DNA of 32,911 nt from Blastocatellia bacterium. GTDB taxonomy: Bacteria; Acidobacteriota; Blastocatellia; UBA7656. Under the pieces are notes generated by a model, which had not been told where the DNA came from, made no database searches, and saw nothing but the letters and a program-made list of their open reading frames with translations. Both the position numbers and the translations under genes were made by a program. The DNA lies in assembly GCA_017883315.1 (NCBI GenBank), contig JADGNW010000462.1:1-32911 (forward strand), read 5' to 3'. Positions 12,148 through 28,647 of the stretch are shown here, one piece after another (within the stretch, counting starts at the first letter, position 1; the number at the start of each line of letters is the position of its first letter).

Positions 12148-13512
12148 CTATCGATTACCTAAGGTCTGCACCGCGCCATCGGGCGAGGTCAACATCGCCA
12201 GCGACTTGTAGAACTCGGGGAATGAAACGCTTGCGCAATCAGCCCCCTCGATCTCGGTCATTCCATCGGCTATCAAGCCAGCGATCGAAAAGGCCATCGC
12301 GATCCTGTGATCACCCGCACTATTGACGCGGCCACCGATAAGCCGCTGCGGCCCGCTGATCGAGAAGCCGTCTTCCTTTTCTTCGATCTCACCGCCGAGC
12401 GCTCTTATACCCTGGGCCACAGTTCGTATGCGATCGCTTTCTTTGACGCGCAGCTCCTTTGCATCGCGCACCTCGACTCGGCCTTCGACTTGAGTGGCGA
12501 CGACGGCCAGCATCGGGATCTCGTCGATGATGTTGGGAATGATCGCGCCCGAGAGAATCAGGCCGCCCTCTTCGGTGGTAAGCTCGGTAGTGAGTTGATG
12601 GCTTGAAACCACGAGGTCACCGACCAGCTCGCCGTGTTGTTCGCGAACGTTCCGCCGTTCGATGCGCGCGCCAAGCTCGGCCAATACATCGAGGAAGCCG
12701 GTCCGGGTCGGATTGAGATTCACATCGTTGAGCAAGAGTGTCGAGCCGGGCAATATGGTTGCGGCAGCGATAAAGAACGCTGCGGACGAGATGTCGCCCG
12801 GCACTCGGTAGTCGATAGGATTCAACTCGTGCCGCCCTTCGATGAACACGGAGCCCGACGATTGAATGTCAATGGATGCGCCTAGTTCTTTCAGCATCAA
12901 CTCGGTGTGATTGCGTGAAAGCGCCGGTTCAGAAAAGCTGGTGCGCCCCTCGGCTAAGAGTCCGGCAAGCAGCACGCAGGTCTTCACCTGTGCGCTTGCG
13001 ACGCGGCTCGCGTAGTCTATCGCTTTGAGCTTCTGACCGTGTATGGTAAGTGGCGGGAAGTCCCCATCCAACTTCCCATGCGTGGCTTCGATTTGCGCGC
13101 CCATCAAGCTGAGCGGTTCGACTATTCGCCCCATTGGTCTGCGGCGCAGGCTCGCATCGCCGTCGATCCGAGAAGTGAAGCGTTGCGCTGCGAGCAGCCC
13201 GCTGAGCATCCTTATCGTTGATCCCGAGTTGCCGGCGTTGAGATCGACGAGGGATGCGGCCGGGCGATACCCGAACAAACCCTGGCCGTGTATTACAAGC
13301 TCCGCACCATTATCTTCCACTGCTACTCCGAGCTTACGAATGCAATCGAGTGTAGCCTTGCAATCGGCGCTGGAAGCCAGTCCTGTGACTCTGGAAGTAC
13401 CGCTCGCGATGGAAGCCAGCATCGCGATTCGGTGTGAAATCGATTTATCTCCGGGGACCGACAGCGACCCTTCGACGCGCGCCGGGCCCTTGATTCTCAT
13501 CGATCTTGACAT
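12148..13512 (-). CDS. aroA: 3-phosphoshikimate 1-carboxyvinyltransferase (EPSP synthase)
   Basis: The ATG at 13512 has GGAAAG five bases upstream; a longer frame to 13536 is less likely. The 454-residue protein matches EPSP synthase in length and motifs: LSVPGDKSISHRIAML (phosphoenolpyruvate and shikimate phosphate binding), NAGNSGSTIRMLSGLLA (the loop whose sequence separates class I from class II enzymes), RVASAQVKTCVLLAGLLA, VPGDISSAAFF, LRVKESDRIRTVAQG with the catalytic Lys-Glu, and GDHRIAMAFSIAG. It joins phosphoenolpyruvate to shikimate 3-phosphate in chorismate synthesis. The GNSGSTIR form of the glycine loop resembles class II enzymes more than the GNAGTAMRP form of E. coli. It heads the aroA-aroK operon and is divergent from the RsbW-like gene. 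Confidence 0.96.
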   Translation of the reverse strand: MSRSMRIKGPARVEGSLSVPGDKSISHRIAMLASIASGTSRVTGLASSADCKATLDCIRKLGVAVEDNGAELVIHGQGLFGYRPAASLVDLNAGNSGSTIRMLSGLLAAQRFTSRIDGDASLRRRPMGRIVEPLSLMGAQIEATHGKLDGDFPPLTIHGQKLKAIDYASRVASAQVKTCVLLAGLLAEGRTSFSEPALSRNHTELMLKELGASIDIQSSGSVFIEGRHELNPIDYRVPGDISSAAFFIAAATILPGSTLLLNDVNLNPTRTGFLDVLAELGARIERRNVREQHGELVGDLVVSSHQLTTELTTEEGGLILSGAIIPNIIDEIPMLAVVATQVEGRVEVRDAKELRVKESDRIRTVAQGIRALGGEIEEKEDGFSISGPQRLIGGRVNSAGDHRIAMAFSIAGLIADGMTEIEGADCASVSFPEFYKSLAMLTSPDGAVQTLGNR

Positions 13513-13624
13513 CGCAACTTTCCGTATGTTACACAATGACGCGCCTTGAGACCACCTTGCTTGTTACAGTGCGCGGTTTGACCGGCGGTTGGTAACGTTC
13601 AGACGAAAGGCATCCCGCGAGCCG

Positions 13625-14044
13625 ATGACAGAGACCATCGAGCTTTCAATCAATAGCAAACTCGAGTTTGTTGACCTGGTCGCATCGGTTACCAAAAGCG
13701 TTACAGCCAAGATGGGGTTTAGCGAAGATGACGCAAGCTGGATCGAGCTGGCGGTACACGAGGCGGTGATAAACGCTATAATGCACGGCAACAGAAACGC
13801 TGCCGATAAGCAGGTGGATGTTCGATTCGTTACCGAAGAAGAAGCGCTCACGGTGTACGTCAGGGATCACGGAGCAGGGTTCGACCCGGCGCACTTACCC
13901 GATCCTACCGACTCGGATCATTTGCTAAACCCGAGCGGCCGAGGCATTTTTTACATGCGCACTTTCATGGATGAGGTCGAGCATTCGATTCATCCGGAGG
14001 GCGGAAGCGTAGTGCGAATGAAAAAGAACAAACGCGGAAATTAG
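13625..14044 (+). CDS. RsbW/SpoIIAB-like anti-sigma kinase (HATPase_c)
   Basis: The ATG at 13625 begins MTETIELSINSKLEF, the usual start of the fold; an in-frame TTG at 13589 is a weaker choice. The 139-residue single-domain protein has the GHKL ATP-site boxes: N box ELAVHEAVINAIMHGN (with the catalytic Glu and Asn), G1 box RDHGAGFDP and G2 box PSGRGIFYMRTFMDEV. Family members bind a sigma factor or a response partner and phosphorylate the serine of a STAS antagonist. The gene is followed after 37 bases by exactly such a STAS protein, so the two form a partner-switching pair. No sigma factor or PP2C phosphatase is in the window, so the target and the reactivating phosphatase are elsewhere. 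Divergent from aroA. Confidence 0.92.
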   Translation: MTETIELSINSKLEFVDLVASVTKSVTAKMGFSEDDASWIELAVHEAVINAIMHGNRNAADKQVDVRFVTEEEALTVYVRDHGAGFDPAHLPDPTDSDHLLNPSGRGIFYMRTFMDEVEHSIHPEGGSVVRMKKNKRGN

Positions 14045-14081
14045 ATCATCAAATTTGTAGCAACCGAAAAGGAGACGTGCC

Positions 14082-14429
14082 ATGGCTAATCTTAATATCA
14101 AGGACCGTCAGACGAATGACGTAACCATACTCGATCTTTCCGGCAAGATCACGATTGGTGAGGGAAGCGTGCAACTGCGCGAAGCCGTCCGCCGCCAGCT
14201 CGACGAGGGACACAAAAAGATATTGCTCAACCTCGGCGATGTGTCGTATGTGGACAGCTCGGGCATAGGCGAACTGGTCAGCTCTTATACCACAACGAAC
14301 CACAACGGAGGACAATTGAAGCTTCTGAATCAGACAAAGAAGATTCACGACCTCCTCACGATCACCAAGCTTCTGACTGTGTTTGAATCGTTCGACAACG
14401 AAGAAGCTGCGGTGGCCAGTTTCAAGTAA
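14082..14429 (+). CDS. STAS-domain anti-sigma factor antagonist (RsbV/SpoIIAA-like)
   Basis: The start has an excellent AAGGAG seven bases upstream, stronger than the kinase gene's, suggesting the antagonist is made in excess. The 115-residue protein is a single STAS domain: [41 protein letters not shown] and the terminal [20 protein letters not shown]. The phosphorylatable serine is in DSSG (Ser59 or Ser60). By family knowledge the unphosphorylated form binds the anti-sigma kinase and frees its target; the kinase inactivates it by phosphorylation. It lies in the same transcription unit as the kinase at 13625 and is followed by two hairpins, so the unit probably ends here. Confidence 0.93.
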
Positions 14430-14440
14430 GAAAGAGCAAG

Positions 14441-14515
14441 GCCCTGAGTGAGGGCGAACGATGTTGAAGCTATTAAGGGCGCAGGCCTCTACGCAAAGTA
14501 GAAGCTAGCGCCCTT
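14441..14515 (+). terminator. two hairpins after the STAS gene
   Basis: A short hairpin (GCCCT 14441-14445 with AGGGC 14451-14455) is followed by a long one. The long hairpin pairs 14475-14492 with 14498-14515: 16 of 18 positions pair around a GCAAA loop, with outer arm AAGGGCGC/GCGCCCTT. Only a short T run follows (TTTCCC), so it may be a terminator, a transcript-stabilising 3' end, or a structured leader of the next gene, whose start is 16 bases away. Confidence 0.5.
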
Positions 14516-14530
14516 TCCCATCTTGTATTC

Positions 14531-16777
14531 ATGCTCATACCAATGCCGAAGAAGCTGCACGCGCTTGTAATCTGCCTCGCACTGGCATTAACGGCCCGCG
14601 CGCAGCAACCCAACCAGACGCCAAAAACCTGGGCCGTCATCGTTGGCGTGTCAAAGTATCAGAAACTGCCAGGAGGTCAGCAGCTTCAGTTCGCCGATCG
14701 AGACGCTGCGTTGTTTGCAGACGCAATCGAGAAGCGAGGGGTTAGTGCGCAAAACGTCCGGCTGCTCACCGGCGCCGAAGCGACTGCGGCGGCTATCAAA
14801 TCCGCGATTGGCAACTGGCTCGCGAAATCAGCTTCTGAACAAGACACTGTCCTCATATTCTTTTCCGGCCATGGTTTCTTCGAGCGCGAGTTCGGGGAAT
14901 CTTATCTACTCGGTTACGACTCTGATCCGAAGGACACGTATGGCACTGCGTTGTCGGTAAGCGAAATTAGTCAGGCGCTCAGCCGCCGGGTTCACGCCGC
15001 TCGCGTGCTGTTTATCGCGGACGCCGTGCGGCGCGACTTCTTCGATCCGGAGGTCGATCCCAGCTCAGCCAAAGCATTTGAGCAGGCGTTCGATCAACTG
15101 ACTGCTTCTCGACCTGGGGTGTCAACCATTATTGCAAGCGGGCCGGGCGAGTTCTCTCGCGAAGGACAGAGGTGGGGAGGTCACGGCGCGTTTACAAAGC
15201 ATCTGGCTGATGTGTTGATCGATGGAGCGGATCCAAGTGTTAATGTCGCAACTAGTACCGATGAGCTTTTTGAGCTGTTGAAGGCTCGACTTGCGGAAGA
15301 CACATCGAACAAACAGCATCCCTGGAGAAGCGGGGGCGCTCTCGCGCAAATCGGCGTGGCGCGACAGCGGCAGACTGTTCCGGCGATAAACGATCAGTCG
15401 CTTTCCAGGACAACTGCGCCGAAGACCATCGCCGAGTCAAGGCCCCCCGAGGCCAAAGCCGAGCTCAAAGCCGAACAAAAGACGACAGCGCCGCCCGTGG
15501 TGACTGAAAAGAAACTCGATCCTTCAACGATCTCGAAGAAAGTTGACACATCAACTACTTCAATAGAAACGAAACCGGCATCTGGTGTCGTTTCAGCTCG
15601 GGAGCCGAAGACAGAGATCACCCATAAGCCGATCCCTGCTAAGCCGTCGGGCCCGGTTGCCACAACGGTCAAACCGGCCGAGACCCCGGCTGACACTCCA
15701 ACTGGGGCCGCTCCCAAACCCGCACAACCCGCGCCGGCAAAATCCTCTTCAACGCGCGGGCCGAGTCCGCCCATGACCGAGAGCGTTCGTGCAACTCAGC
15801 CTGGAACGCCGCCCACACGCGAACCAGTGCCGGTTGAAATGACGACTCCGGCGATTCCAGCTCCGCCCAAGCCGTCGGTCAATCCACCGAACGTTGGGGC
15901 CGTCTCATCGGAACGCGCGACTACTCAGCCTGAGACTCTCTCCGCTTCGGTCCCCGTTGCGCGGCCGGAAGCCGCGCCCTCGCCGTTGGTTCTGCAGCTC
16001 GAAGCGGCGATAGCTTCGAAGAACTTGCTCGAGCCAAGAAACGCGAGTGCGTGGGACATCTACACGCGGTTGGCTTCGGATCCCGGCACGGCGGCGGATG
16101 CAGCGCGACTAAAACCGCTGCTGGCTGAAGCGCTGGTTAAACAGGGGCGACTGATTGTCAGCGGCGACGTTCGTAGCGATAACATCTCCGACAAAGTCGA
16201 TGAGTTCAAGCGGGCGGGGCAGATGTTCGTGCGAGCGCGCGCGCTTGCGCCCGAGAATGGAGATCTTGCCGCGCTTGAAAAGCTAAGCGCGTCTGAGGCG
16301 TTAATATCATTACAATTCTATGACGAAGCGGAGCGCGCGCTAACGCAGCTTCAGAGCGCAAAGCTGGCTTCGGTCGAGAATGCACTCGGCCTGGTTTATC
16401 AAGGCAAGCTTGATACGTGGCGTGCGGAGCGCTCGTTCAAACGCGCGATCGAGCTGGACGGGAAGTGGGCGGCGCCGCATTACAATCTCGCGTCGCTTTA
16501 TCACAGCCAGCAGAATCAAGACTCGCTTTCGGAGTTTGAAGCCGCCGCCGCGCTCGATGAAAAGAATGTGAACCTCATGGCTGCGCTGGGCGAAGAGTAC
16601 TTCGCGCGGCAACAGTGGAAGCAAGCTGCTGAATCATTTCGCAGAGCGATTGCGCTCAAGCCTTCCGACGACACGCTGCACATGAAACTCGGGCACGCGC
16701 TCTACAGTCAGGGACTTCAAGATGAAGCGAATCGCGAGTACCGGAAAGCCAGCGAGTTGCGAGCGAAGCAGCCTTAG
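14531..16777 (+). CDS. secreted caspase-fold/TPR protein with missing catalytic cysteine
   Basis: The 748-residue protein starts at ATG 14531 (a second ATG at 14543 is possible; neither has a clear ribosome-binding site). A signal peptide ends near residue 25 (LALALTARAQQ). Residues about 32-280 match the C14/metacaspase domain: KTWAVIVGVSKYQKLPGGQQL, FADRDAALFADAI, VLIFFSGHGFFE with the catalytic His114, YLLGYDSDPKD, and FIADAVRRDFF where active enzymes have DACxSG. The catalytic Cys position is Val166 (codon GTG at 15026-15028), so proteolysis by the usual mechanism is not expected. Residues 285-490 are a Pro/Thr/Lys-rich linker and about 495-748 are TPR repeats (GLVYQGKLDTWRAERSFKRA, AAPHYNLASLYHSQQN). 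Likely a periplasmic scaffold. It follows the RsbW/STAS pair in the same direction. Confidence 0.88.
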   Translation: MLIPMPKKLHALVICLALALTARAQQPNQTPKTWAVIVGVSKYQKLPGGQQLQFADRDAALFADAIEKRGVSAQNVRLLTGAEATAAAIKSAIGNWLAKSASEQDTVLIFFSGHGFFEREFGESYLLGYDSDPKDTYGTALSVSEISQALSRRVHAARVLFIADAVRRDFFDPEVDPSSAKAFEQAFDQLTASRPGVSTIIASGPGEFSREGQRWGGHGAFTKHLADVLIDGADPSVNVATSTDELFELLKARLAEDTSNKQHPWRSGGALAQIGVARQRQTVPAINDQSLSRTTAPKTIAESRPPEAKAELKAEQKTTAPPVVTEKKLDPSTISKKVDTSTTSIETKPASGVVSAREPKTEITHKPIPAKPSGPVATTVKPAETPADTPTGAAPKPAQPAPAKSSSTRGPSPPMTESVRATQPGTPPTREPVPVEMTTPAIPAPPKPSVNPPNVGAVSSERATTQPETLSASVPVARPEAAPSPLVLQLEAAIASKNLLEPRNASAWDIYTRLASDPGTAADAARLKPLLAEALVKQGRLIVSGDVRSDNISDKVDEFKRAGQMFVRARALAPENGDLAALEKLSASEALISLQFYDEAERALTQLQSAKLASVENALGLVYQGKLDTWRAERSFKRAIELDGKWAAPHYNLASLYHSQQNQDSLSEFEAAAALDEKNVNLMAALGEEYFARQQWKQAAESFRRAIALKPSDDTLHMKLGHALYSQGLQDEANREYRKASELRAKQP

Positions 16778-16786
16778 TCGGCTTGC

Positions 16787-17968
16787 TTACTTTTTCTTCT
16801 TCTCCTCGAATGGCTGACTGAGGTCCATCACATACAACTCGTTCTCTCGATCGCGATTCGAGCCGAAGAATATTTCTGTGTTTGAAACAAACATCGGCGA
16901 GTGCGTGTTGCCCGGCTTGAAGGTGAGCTGTTTGATTTGCGCAGTCGCCGAGTCGTACAGAAAAAGTTGCGAGCCGAAGTTCGCGGGTCCCACGAACGCG
17001 ATGAACTTGCCGTCCGGTGAAAGCGCCGGACCGACCTTGGGCAGATCGGGCTCAGGCAGCTCGCGCACCTGACCGTTCCTGGGATCGAGCAAGTAAATGC
17101 TGTCTTGCTGCTCGACCTCTTCTTGCGCCCAAAGCACAATCAAGCCTCCGGCTGCTCCCGTAATGTAGCCGCGAATGCGCGCGAACTTCGATTCAGTGAG
17201 GTCGCGTTGAGCCTTTCCGTCAAAGCCATATTGCCAAAGCGAATGCCGGCCGCTTGCATCGCTTACCTTAACGAGCAAGACGCTTTTCCCGTCAGCCGCG
17301 ATGCCGGGATGAATCGACGAGCATTCATCTTCGGTGAAGAAGGCGGGCTTCCCTCCGGCGACCGCAATCGATGCGATGTGCAGGATGCCGAATGCTGCGT
17401 CGGGCAGCGGGCTTTCATCGGAGGTATAGAGTACACGCTTTCCATCCGGCGTGAACACTGGCTCTTTGTCACTGAAGGCATTCTTTGTAAGCTGTCGTAC
17501 CGTAGTTGTTCTAACGTCGAGAACGAATATCTCGTCGAAGCTCGCCGTTTCATTGAAGCCGGCAACCGCGATCGACTGACCGTCGGGCGACCATTGCGGA
17601 GTGGCCACGCCCCACTTCAATTTTGTCAGCGGTGGTCGGATAGAATGATCGGCAAGGTTCATCATGTAGAGATTCGGCGCTGCGTCCGGCTTCTGCGCGA
17701 TCAGCAGGATTGACTGTTTATCCGGCGACACCGGGCCAATCGCGTAAAGGCCCATTCCCTGAGTGAGCTGCCGAACCTTGAAGGCATCTGGCTTCTTCTC
17801 TTCTTTTTTCTCTTCTTTGGTTTTCGGTTCTTGATTCGGTGTACCCGTTGCTGATGACAGTTGAACTACCAAACTTACAAGAAGGTTCACCAGAAGGATT
17901 ACCAGAAGCATTGCACACGCGCGCGTCGTCAATGGCGCGTCACTCTTGGGTTTGGAGAAGAGTCTCAT
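16787..17968 (-). CDS. TolB-like beta-propeller protein (PD40 repeats), membrane-anchored
   Basis: The 393-residue protein has an N-terminal hydrophobic segment (CAMLLVILLVNLLVSLVV, about 18-36) serving as signal or anchor, then a charged Lys/Glu linker (EPKTKEEKKEEKKPDAF) and a propeller of PD40/WD40-like blades. Blade signatures are ATPQWSPDGQSIAVAG, KEPVFTPDGKRVLYTSD, VGPALSPDGKFIAFVG and SPMFVSNTEIFFGSNRDRENELYVMDL. TolB family proteins of this kind sit in the periplasm and bind protein or peptide partners. The C-terminus is polylysine (EEKKKK). It follows the alpha/beta hydrolase on the minus strand after a 74-base gap and converges with the caspase-like gene, with nine bases between stops. 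Partner and function are unknown; it is not the canonical TolB of the Tol-Pal operon, because no tol genes are near. Confidence 0.82.
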   Translation of the reverse strand: MRLFSKPKSDAPLTTRACAMLLVILLVNLLVSLVVQLSSATGTPNQEPKTKEEKKEEKKPDAFKVRQLTQGMGLYAIGPVSPDKQSILLIAQKPDAAPNLYMMNLADHSIRPPLTKLKWGVATPQWSPDGQSIAVAGFNETASFDEIFVLDVRTTTVRQLTKNAFSDKEPVFTPDGKRVLYTSDESPLPDAAFGILHIASIAVAGGKPAFFTEDECSSIHPGIAADGKSVLLVKVSDASGRHSLWQYGFDGKAQRDLTESKFARIRGYITGAAGGLIVLWAQEEVEQQDSIYLLDPRNGQVRELPEPDLPKVGPALSPDGKFIAFVGPANFGSQLFLYDSATAQIKQLTFKPGNTHSPMFVSNTEIFFGSNRDRENELYVMDLSQPFEEKKKK

Positions 17969-26373: not shown

Positions 26374-28647
26374 TCAACCAAACTCGCCAGCGCCGCGATC
26401 GCTTATTAGCCGCCACGGCATGCGGTGAGCTTTGCATCTGGGGCGGCGCACAACTCTTCGCGCAAGGTTCAGTCTGATGCCACACGTTTCGCACTCGCCG
26501 GCGGTCCGGCGCGCGGCCCTTACGATCTCAAGCGCGGCTTCGTCTTTTTCGATTCGCCTGAGCTCGGCAAGCTCGCGAGCCATGCTTTCGGCGTCCTGTC
26601 GCATCAGCTTCGCGCGCTCTTCGCCGGCCTTCACTTCGGCGTATTCCTCTTCGGTCAGCAGCGCTTTCAACCAGAGCTGAACGTCTCGGCTTGCCAGCGC
26701 CATCCACTGTCCCTTAGGACTGAACGCAACCGGATGCCAACTGATTTCGCTGAACCACAACGTCTTCACCAAACGTCCGGTCGATAGATTCCATATCCTG
26801 ATCGTCTGACCGAGGCTGCCCCCGGCGACCAACTGGCCGTTAGGACTGAACGCCACCGAAGTCACATCGTTGATGTGTCCCGTGAGTGTGCGGATCTCGC
26901 GAGCGGTGGCAACATCCCAGATCCTCACCATCTTGTCTTCGCCGCCCGATACCAGCAGGCGGCCGTCCGGACTATAGGCGAGCGATGCTACGCCGGCGGT
27001 GTGGCCTTCGAACCTCTTCACTTCGCGACCGGTGTCCGCGTCCCAGAGCTTGAGCGTTCGATCCAGGCTACCCGAGGCTATGTACCGGCCATCGGGGCTG
27101 AACACAGTTGAGGTGACCGGCCCTTCGTGACCTTCCATCGGTTGCACTTCCTGGCCGGTGATCACTCTCCACAGCCTGACAATCGAGTCGGTGCTGCCCG
27201 AGGCAAGCCACAAACCATCAGGGCTAAAGGTCACCGCGCGCACTTCGCCGCAGTCTCGAGCATCAAGAGTTCGAATCTCGCGGCCGGCGTAAACGTCCCA
27301 CAGTTTGATTGTGCGGTCGCGGCTGCCCGACGCCAGACACTGGCTGTCGGGACTGAACGCAATTGAGTTGACGCTTGCGGTGTGTCCGCGAAGCGCGCGC
27401 AGCAGCACTCCGCTGTCTACCTCCCAGATCTTTATTCCCTCGTAAAGAAACCCCGAAGCGATAAGGCGCCCGTCCGGACTGATTGCAACCGATCTCACAT
27501 AATCGCGCGTGCCTATCTCATACTGCTTATAGAAGAGATCGTAGATGCCTCGCAGTTCTTGTTGAACCTGCGAATGGGTCTGCATGAACTGCAGACCCGA
27601 GCGGTATGTTTTCGCCGCTGCCAGTTGGTCTTCGACATTCTGAAACATGATTGACAGCGTCTGACGTTTTTCCGGGGTAGCGATGACGAACCTCTTGAGC
27701 ATGCTTGCATCGCGGCTCAGTTCGGCAAGCTTTTCTTGAACAGGTTGCATCAACCCGTCGAGCAGTTGCTGCACCGGCGCGCGAACGCGATCGAACGCCT
27801 CGTCGCTTCTCGCGCGTTCGTAGTATCGCGGATCTCCCTTTATGGCGGGCTCCAGGCTCGCGACCGCAGCGACGGGGTCGTTCACAATCGCCGACAAGCA
27901 AGCTTTCTGATAATGCGCTTCGAACAGCTCGGGGTTTAGCGTTATTGCCTCACTGAAATGACCAAGCGCAGACTCGGAGCCTTGCTGCAGCGCGCACACA
28001 ACGCCGGCGAAGTAGTGCGCTTCGGCGGATTGCCGCGCATCGCTTGGGCGTGAGTACTTCGCGGACTTGCAAAAATACTCGAGCGAGCCGGCCAGATCGA
28101 TCAGGTGATAGAGACGTATGTTCGCTATCGATCGAAGCACGGCGAAGTCGGGATAGTTGCGCTGCTCTGCTTCCAGGAAGTCCGCGAGCGCTTCGGCGTA
28201 CCAGCCATTCAGGTAAGCTTTCTCGGCTCGGCTTCGATATGCGCGAGCTTCTCTCTCGAACTCAGCGAGTCGAATTTCATGCAGGATGTTGCTGAGAGCC
28301 TCGTCGTGCATCTCGAGCTTCCAGATGACGTCTCCCAGCAGGAGGTTGAAGTCCGCGTTAAGCCGATCGATTCCACTGGCGAGCTTGTCAAACCGGAACT
28401 CGATACTGTAGCTCGAATCACTGATTCCATAACTCATTCCTGCGCCGAGCGCGCCCAGCCCCGACTCGAGCGCAATGTGATAGTCGCGCTGGCTCAATGC
28501 GACTCGGATTGCGCCCGGAATTGCAAGCGATTCATCAACCAGGGCAGCCTGCTGCTCGACGGCCTTCTCGAAGCTTGCGATCGACTGACGATCGCTGATG
28601 AAGTCTTCCCAGTTCTGGTTGCCCAGATAGATTGACGAGAGTCCCAT
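26374..28647 (-). CDS. TPR-WD40 repeat protein with C-terminal CxxC/CxxH motif
   Basis: The 757-residue protein starts at ATG 28647 behind AAGGA. It has no signal peptide. Residues 1-130 are helical without a known match, 135-275 contain TPR-like repeats (AYLNGWYAEALADFLEAEQ, AHYFAGVVCALQQGSESALGH), about 300-380 are a coiled helical connector, and about 383-665 are seven WD40 repeats (for example SIAFSPDSQCLASGSRDRT and IKLWD), enough for one closed propeller. The tail from about 670 is a Glu/Arg-rich coiled coil followed by C719-x2-C722 and C738-x2-H741, a possible zinc site. Repeat scaffolds of this type join protein complexes in the cytoplasm; no kinase, NACHT or protease domain is fused. 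Its N-terminal region mentions no nucleotide-binding motif. It is convergent with the small secreted protein. Confidence 0.88.
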   Translation of the reverse strand: MGLSSIYLGNQNWEDFISDRQSIASFEKAVEQQAALVDESLAIPGAIRVALSQRDYHIALESGLGALGAGMSYGISDSSYSIEFRFDKLASGIDRLNADFNLLLGDVIWKLEMHDEALSNILHEIRLAEFEREARAYRSRAEKAYLNGWYAEALADFLEAEQRNYPDFAVLRSIANIRLYHLIDLAGSLEYFCKSAKYSRPSDARQSAEAHYFAGVVCALQQGSESALGHFSEAITLNPELFEAHYQKACLSAIVNDPVAAVASLEPAIKGDPRYYERARSDEAFDRVRAPVQQLLDGLMQPVQEKLAELSRDASMLKRFVIATPEKRQTLSIMFQNVEDQLAAAKTYRSGLQFMQTHSQVQQELRGIYDLFYKQYEIGTRDYVRSVAISPDGRLIASGFLYEGIKIWEVDSGVLLRALRGHTASVNSIAFSPDSQCLASGSRDRTIKLWDVYAGREIRTLDARDCGEVRAVTFSPDGLWLASGSTDSIVRLWRVITGQEVQPMEGHEGPVTSTVFSPDGRYIASGSLDRTLKLWDADTGREVKRFEGHTAGVASLAYSPDGRLLVSGGEDKMVRIWDVATAREIRTLTGHINDVTSVAFSPNGQLVAGGSLGQTIRIWNLSTGRLVKTLWFSEISWHPVAFSPKGQWMALASRDVQLWLKALLTEEEYAEVKAGEERAKLMRQDAESMARELAELRRIEKDEAALEIVRAARRTAGECETCGIRLNLARRVVRRPRCKAHRMPWRLISDRGAGEFG

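Follow-up and report, generated by a model that had tools for sequence, protein, structure and literature searches.

The gene at positions 14531-16777 of the window (the whole stretch of DNA that was analysed, 32,911 nucleotides) encodes a protein that, going by its active-site residues, is a lineage-specific pseudo-orthocaspase, a class known from Cyanobacteria and Alphaproteobacteria. We consider it probable that this protein is exported and has kept the caspase fold as a non-catalytic binding module tethered to TPRs, acting as a periplasmic scaffold or sensor. Its open reading frame of 748 amino acids starts with a signal peptide and continues with a Peptidase_C14 (caspase-fold) domain, a linker rich in Pro, Thr, Ala and Ser, and a C-terminal TPR domain, with the following features:

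14531..16777, + strand: pseudo-orthocaspase-TPR gene (P0001), 748 aa as called, 744 aa from ATG 14543
14543..14602, + strand: predicted Sec-type signal peptide, MPKKLHALVICLALALTARA followed by QQ (sequence features)
14627..15331, + strand: Peptidase_C14 (caspase p20-like) domain, residues 33-267 (Pfam, AlphaFold2, Foldseek)
14702..14704, + strand: Asp58 (FADRDA), putative equivalent of S1-pocket Asp95 of T. brucei MC2 (motif position)
14870..14872, + strand: His114 of SGHG, the kept catalytic histidine (alignment of 7 orthologs)
15020..15022, + strand: Asp164 of D-A-V, two residues before the Cys position, putative equivalent of S1-pocket Asp211 of T. brucei MC2
15026..15028, + strand: Val166 (GTG) at the catalytic Cys position (V/I/M in orthologs, Cys in the other C14 domains read)
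15368..15970, + strand: disordered Pro/Thr/Ala/Ser-rich linker, residues 280-480 (composition, full-length model, dN/dS)
15971..16774, + strand: conserved C-terminal alpha-solenoid (SPL-domain and TPRs), residues 481-748 (Pfam, model, hhalign to active paralogs)

Because it fits the N-termini of the orthologs better, ATG 14543 (MPKKLH...) is more probably the true start of the gene than ATG 14531. A hydrophobic core and a cleavage-like A-Q site, judged from sequence, recur in 7/7 orthologs, in agreement with the export proposed in the preliminary description of this gene. Pfam matched PF00656 Peptidase_C14 over residues 33-267 (E 2.5e-16, over the cut-off) and also the C-terminal TPRs, to which the domain had been said to be fused, and the linker of 201 aa (19% Pro, 14% Thr, 12% Ala and 10% Ser) corresponds to the Pro/Thr-rich stretch of about 200 residues noted there. 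In the L039 (G003) ortholog the SPL-domain, which lies between linker and TPRs, is short of about 85 residues. An EF-hand-like DxDxDG loop, found in most orthologs and paralogs at the position of residues 231-245 of P0001 (about 15221-15265), is degenerate in the window protein (ADPSVNVATSTDE) and in G001.

The AlphaFold2 model of the C14 domain, based on the seven-row alignment, reached a pTM of 0.81 and a mean pLDDT of 74.5, and its best Foldseek matches were MALT1 paracaspase, metacaspases, GSU0716 and legumain, at a probability of 1.00. The PF00656 match and these caspase-fold structural matches together place the domain in the orthocaspase/Peptidase_C14 fold, so that the caspase fold suggested earlier is recovered in the predicted structure. 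Searching PDB sequences with the domain profile returned EF-hand proteins only, via a short DxDxDG-like stretch, and was uninformative for the fold. The full-length model contains two confident domains with a disordered linker between them (pLDDT 31-41 over most of the linker); as its pTM is 0.42, no fixed mutual orientation of the two domains is predicted.

The ortholog set covers all seven genomes examined from the source family (G000-G006), one of which is the Chloracidobacterium sp. UBA7656 assembly, Acidobacteriota. All seven carry an ortholog at the equivalent locus, and the catalytic Cys position is taken by V, V, V, I, V, M and V, encoded by GTG, GTG, GTG, ATA, GTT, ATG and GTT, respectively. 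Cys is present in the approximately 50 other C14 domains from the source genome, family, class and phylum that are readable at this position; a few partial matches are gapped there, and one weak second alignment of L134 falls outside the real C14 domain. Since 7/7 orthologs but none of the other readable C14 domains are in the non-Cys state, a chance origin of this state is excluded. L134 (G379) is a 1243-residue open frame whose C14 domain has ACHG at the histidine motif and keeps the Cys.

The catalytic His is kept in 7/7 orthologs, and of the His-Cys dyad of active orthocaspases His114 thus remains while the Cys is replaced by V/I/M. In the L071 (G006) ortholog, the gene of which ends at the contig end, the histidine motif reads SGHA in place of SGHG. 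Downstream of the Cys position, HSG/HAG is changed to R[RKQ][DE], with the arginine invariant across the pseudo clade. Two trivial explanations had been raised for the missing nucleophile. A sequence error at 15026-15028 is ruled out by the agreement of seven genomes on a non-Cys residue, and a substitute cysteine elsewhere by the composition of the protein, the sole Cys of which (C15) lies within the signal peptide, leaving the mature protein without any. The earlier claim that the usual Cys/His mechanism is impossible therefore holds.

The acidic residues of the substrate pocket are retained. Basic substrate residues are held in T. brucei MC2 by Asp95 and Asp211, and both of these acidic pocket residues persist in bacterial pseudo-orthocaspases (PMC6426788). 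Asp58 and Asp164, which are their putative equivalents by motif position rather than by structural superposition, are invariant in the alignment of the seven orthologs, in line with the acidic specificity pocket of that class. The Asp58 column is Asp in every C14 match where the column aligns, and conservation of the S1 Asp may have a structural cause.

In the IQ-TREE phylogeny the seven pseudo proteins with their substituted p20 dyad are monophyletic (support 100/100), with one Cys-loss change on the tree. Since the seven form one clade, the Cys is reconstructed as lost once, in the ancestor from which one acidobacterial family descends. The stem branch of this clade measures 0.82 compared to 0.32 for the neighbouring active clade, and the fork uniting it with the active C14-TPR proteins L042-L045 has a support of just 80/80. 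A class-wide profile search of 162 genomes separated the orthologs (416-445 bits) from all other matches (<=222 bits); no ortholog outside the family was found by it in these class genomes, nor in a sample of 396 phylum genomes. The dN/dS of the caspase domain, a rough value as dS is near saturation, is about 0.055 (window vs G001) or 0.07 (G003 vs G006), the lowest among the three regions, compared to about 0.28 for the linker, where dS is likewise near saturation. By these estimates the caspase domain is under strong purifying selection; the C-terminal domain is conserved equally well. Alignment of the relatives at the DAC position and this constraint bear out the earlier expectation that the loss is selected.

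The nearest relatives of the seven are active-type C14-TPR proteins of the class (L042-L045) that keep the Cys and have a collinear C-terminus. They share with the pseudo protein the order of C14 domain, SPL-domain and TPRs but retain DAC-H-[SA]-G where the latter has V/I/M at the Cys position, and they carry a shorter stretch in place of its 200-residue Pro/Thr linker. By hhalign (probability 99.3%, E 1.1e-20) the C-terminal part, including the SPL-domain before the TPRs, has a homologous counterpart in the active paralogs. Hence, the pseudo protein looks as if it derived from the layout of active C14-TPR proteins, with the stretch in the middle turned into a long linker.

In the family, the pseudo-caspase gene is preceded by aroA and by genes for an RsbW-like ATPase and an RsbV-like STAS protein. 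In the window the region from the RsbW-like gene onwards is organized as follows:

13589..14044, + strand: RsbW-like HATPase_c_2 gene, conserved neighbour, paired with the STAS gene class-wide
14082..14429, + strand: RsbV-like STAS-domain gene, conserved neighbour
14475..14515, + strand: terminator-like hairpin between the STAS gene and the pseudo-caspase gene, in 7/7 orthologous loci

The order rsbW-rsbV-pseudo-caspase on one strand is found in 7/7 family genomes. The rsbW-rsbV pair itself occurs class-wide, beside aroA in many genomes; 23 non-family loci, read over about 1.5 kb on either side of the STAS gene, had no caspase gene there. As the pair exists across the class without a caspase, the pseudo-caspase gene joined an old locus. 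The hairpin is GC-rich with a T-rich tail and shows compensatory changes in 8/17 pairs over the seven loci; the start of the pseudo-caspase lies some 10-40 bases beyond it, so that a promoter of its own would hardly fit in between. Ahead of the STAS gene a ribosome-binding site of the AAGGAGA type is clear, and none was recognisable by eye ahead of most pseudo-caspase genes in the seven loci. Rfam gave no match within 13500-17000 and a sigma-70 consensus scan no promoter within 13400-17000. The conserved hairpin weakens a simple operon with rsbW-rsbV as an explanation, as does the occurrence of the rsbWV locus across the class with no caspase beside it; the gene may be expressed by read-through, from an overlapping promoter or from a leaderless message. 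On the other side, a PD40 beta-propeller gene follows in convergent orientation (16787-17968, - strand), the product of which has a hydrophobic N-terminus; this gene adjoins the pseudo-caspase in 3/5 other family genomes checked. Further away, 26374-28647 (- strand) encodes a 757-residue protein with many WD40 repeats.

An aliphatic replacement of the cutting residue, kept since the family ancestor, suggests binding rather than cutting. We infer from these features that the pseudo-orthocaspase is exported in practice, is inactive, binds peptides and serves as a scaffold or sensor. In such a scenario, an active, secreted C14-TPR-type ancestor would have undergone a single loss of the nucleophile prior to the diversification of the family, and the caspase fold would thereafter have been retained as a non-catalytic binding module. 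The kept His and acidic S1-type pocket, which lack a nucleophile and hence predict binding without cleavage, could hold basic (Arg/Lys) peptide ends or partner proteins, while the long flexible linker would tie this module to the TPR solenoid binding a second partner, the whole acting as a periplasmic scaffold or sensor. This role, already put forward in the preliminary description, is plausible but unproven.

That the kept His114 and pocket residues would be needless in a purely structural relic might also be taken to mean that catalysis persists through an alternative nucleophile. This is very hard to reconcile with aliphatic replacements in a Cys-free mature protein, and the ortholog alignment has no conserved Ser/Thr/Cys at or beside position 166. 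The same residues, kept in 7/7, together with the low dN/dS of about 0.055, make it improbable that the caspase domain is a mere folded spacer or relic and that function lies wholly in the TPR part, even though the latter is conserved as well. A less remote but still unlikely explanation is a regulator like cFLIP or TbMC4, in which the dead p20 would have an active, likewise exported orthocaspase of its own cell as pairing partner, processing enzyme or competitor. The family genomes do encode Cys-containing C14 proteins, some with signal-peptide-like N-termini and TPR-like tails, G004 and G005 have close active paralogs with a collinear C-terminus, and eukaryotic precedents are cited in PMC6426788. 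However, among the seven family genomes the closest active paralog was found in two only, which leaves the pseudo gene without a fixed accompanying partner, and bacterial pseudo-orthocaspases have been argued to act mostly independently of active ones (PMC6426788).

Gene order might instead suggest that the pseudo-caspase is the input or output arm of the upstream RsbW/RsbV-like partner switch. The invariant arrangement in the family favors this, but the pair occurs class-wide with no caspase near the STAS gene in the 23 non-family loci, the terminator-like hairpin separates the genes in 7/7, and the pseudo-caspase, unlike the cytoplasmic RsbW/RsbV proteins, has a signal peptide; we regard such a function as doubtful. 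It would be similarly surprising if the non-cutting caspase domain were a periplasmic receptor for basic peptide ends whose production depends on conditional read-through of the conserved hairpin downstream of an RsbW/RsbV stress switch; if true, an envelope sensor would be linked to that switch by RNA-level control. We favor the exported, non-catalytic binding module tethered to TPRs as the reading of this protein.

Among known systems, the closest are the bacterial pseudo-orthocaspases, which make up 858 of 9,994 orthocaspases, 90% of them from Alphaproteobacteria and Cyanobacteria (PMC6426788). Common types are YS, YA, FS, YN, YG, QC and HA (PMC6426788, Klemencic et al. 2019); FS types in Rhizobiales are TPR-fused, and cyanobacterial YS types carry a TAT-like export signal (PMC6426788). 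Neither acidobacterial pseudo-caspases nor an exported protein of this phylum with an H-[VIM] dyad were found in the running text of the papers searched, although an example may have been overlooked. The family described here would be a further, independent case in which catalytically dead caspase domains arose and were conserved, and since active paralogs with a collinear C-terminus survive in it, the change from protease to binding module is open to direct comparison. With the bacterial proteins it shares a C14/p20 domain with a broken His-Cys dyad, a kept acidic pocket, TPRs (as in FS) and an export signal (as in YS, there TAT-like), but it differs in the kept His, the change of Cys to V/I/M, its occurrence in Acidobacteriota, the predicted Sec-type signal peptide and the long disordered linker. 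SyOC of Synechocystis, the knock-out of which leads to higher oxidative stress tolerance (PMC7889975), is likewise a pseudo-orthocaspase but has another substitution and belongs to another lineage than the acidobacterial protein. Human cFLIP-L and T. brucei MC4 (cited in PMC6426788) are also dead caspase or metacaspase domains, with regulatory roles; in contrast to the protein analysed here, they are eukaryotic and paired with known active enzymes.
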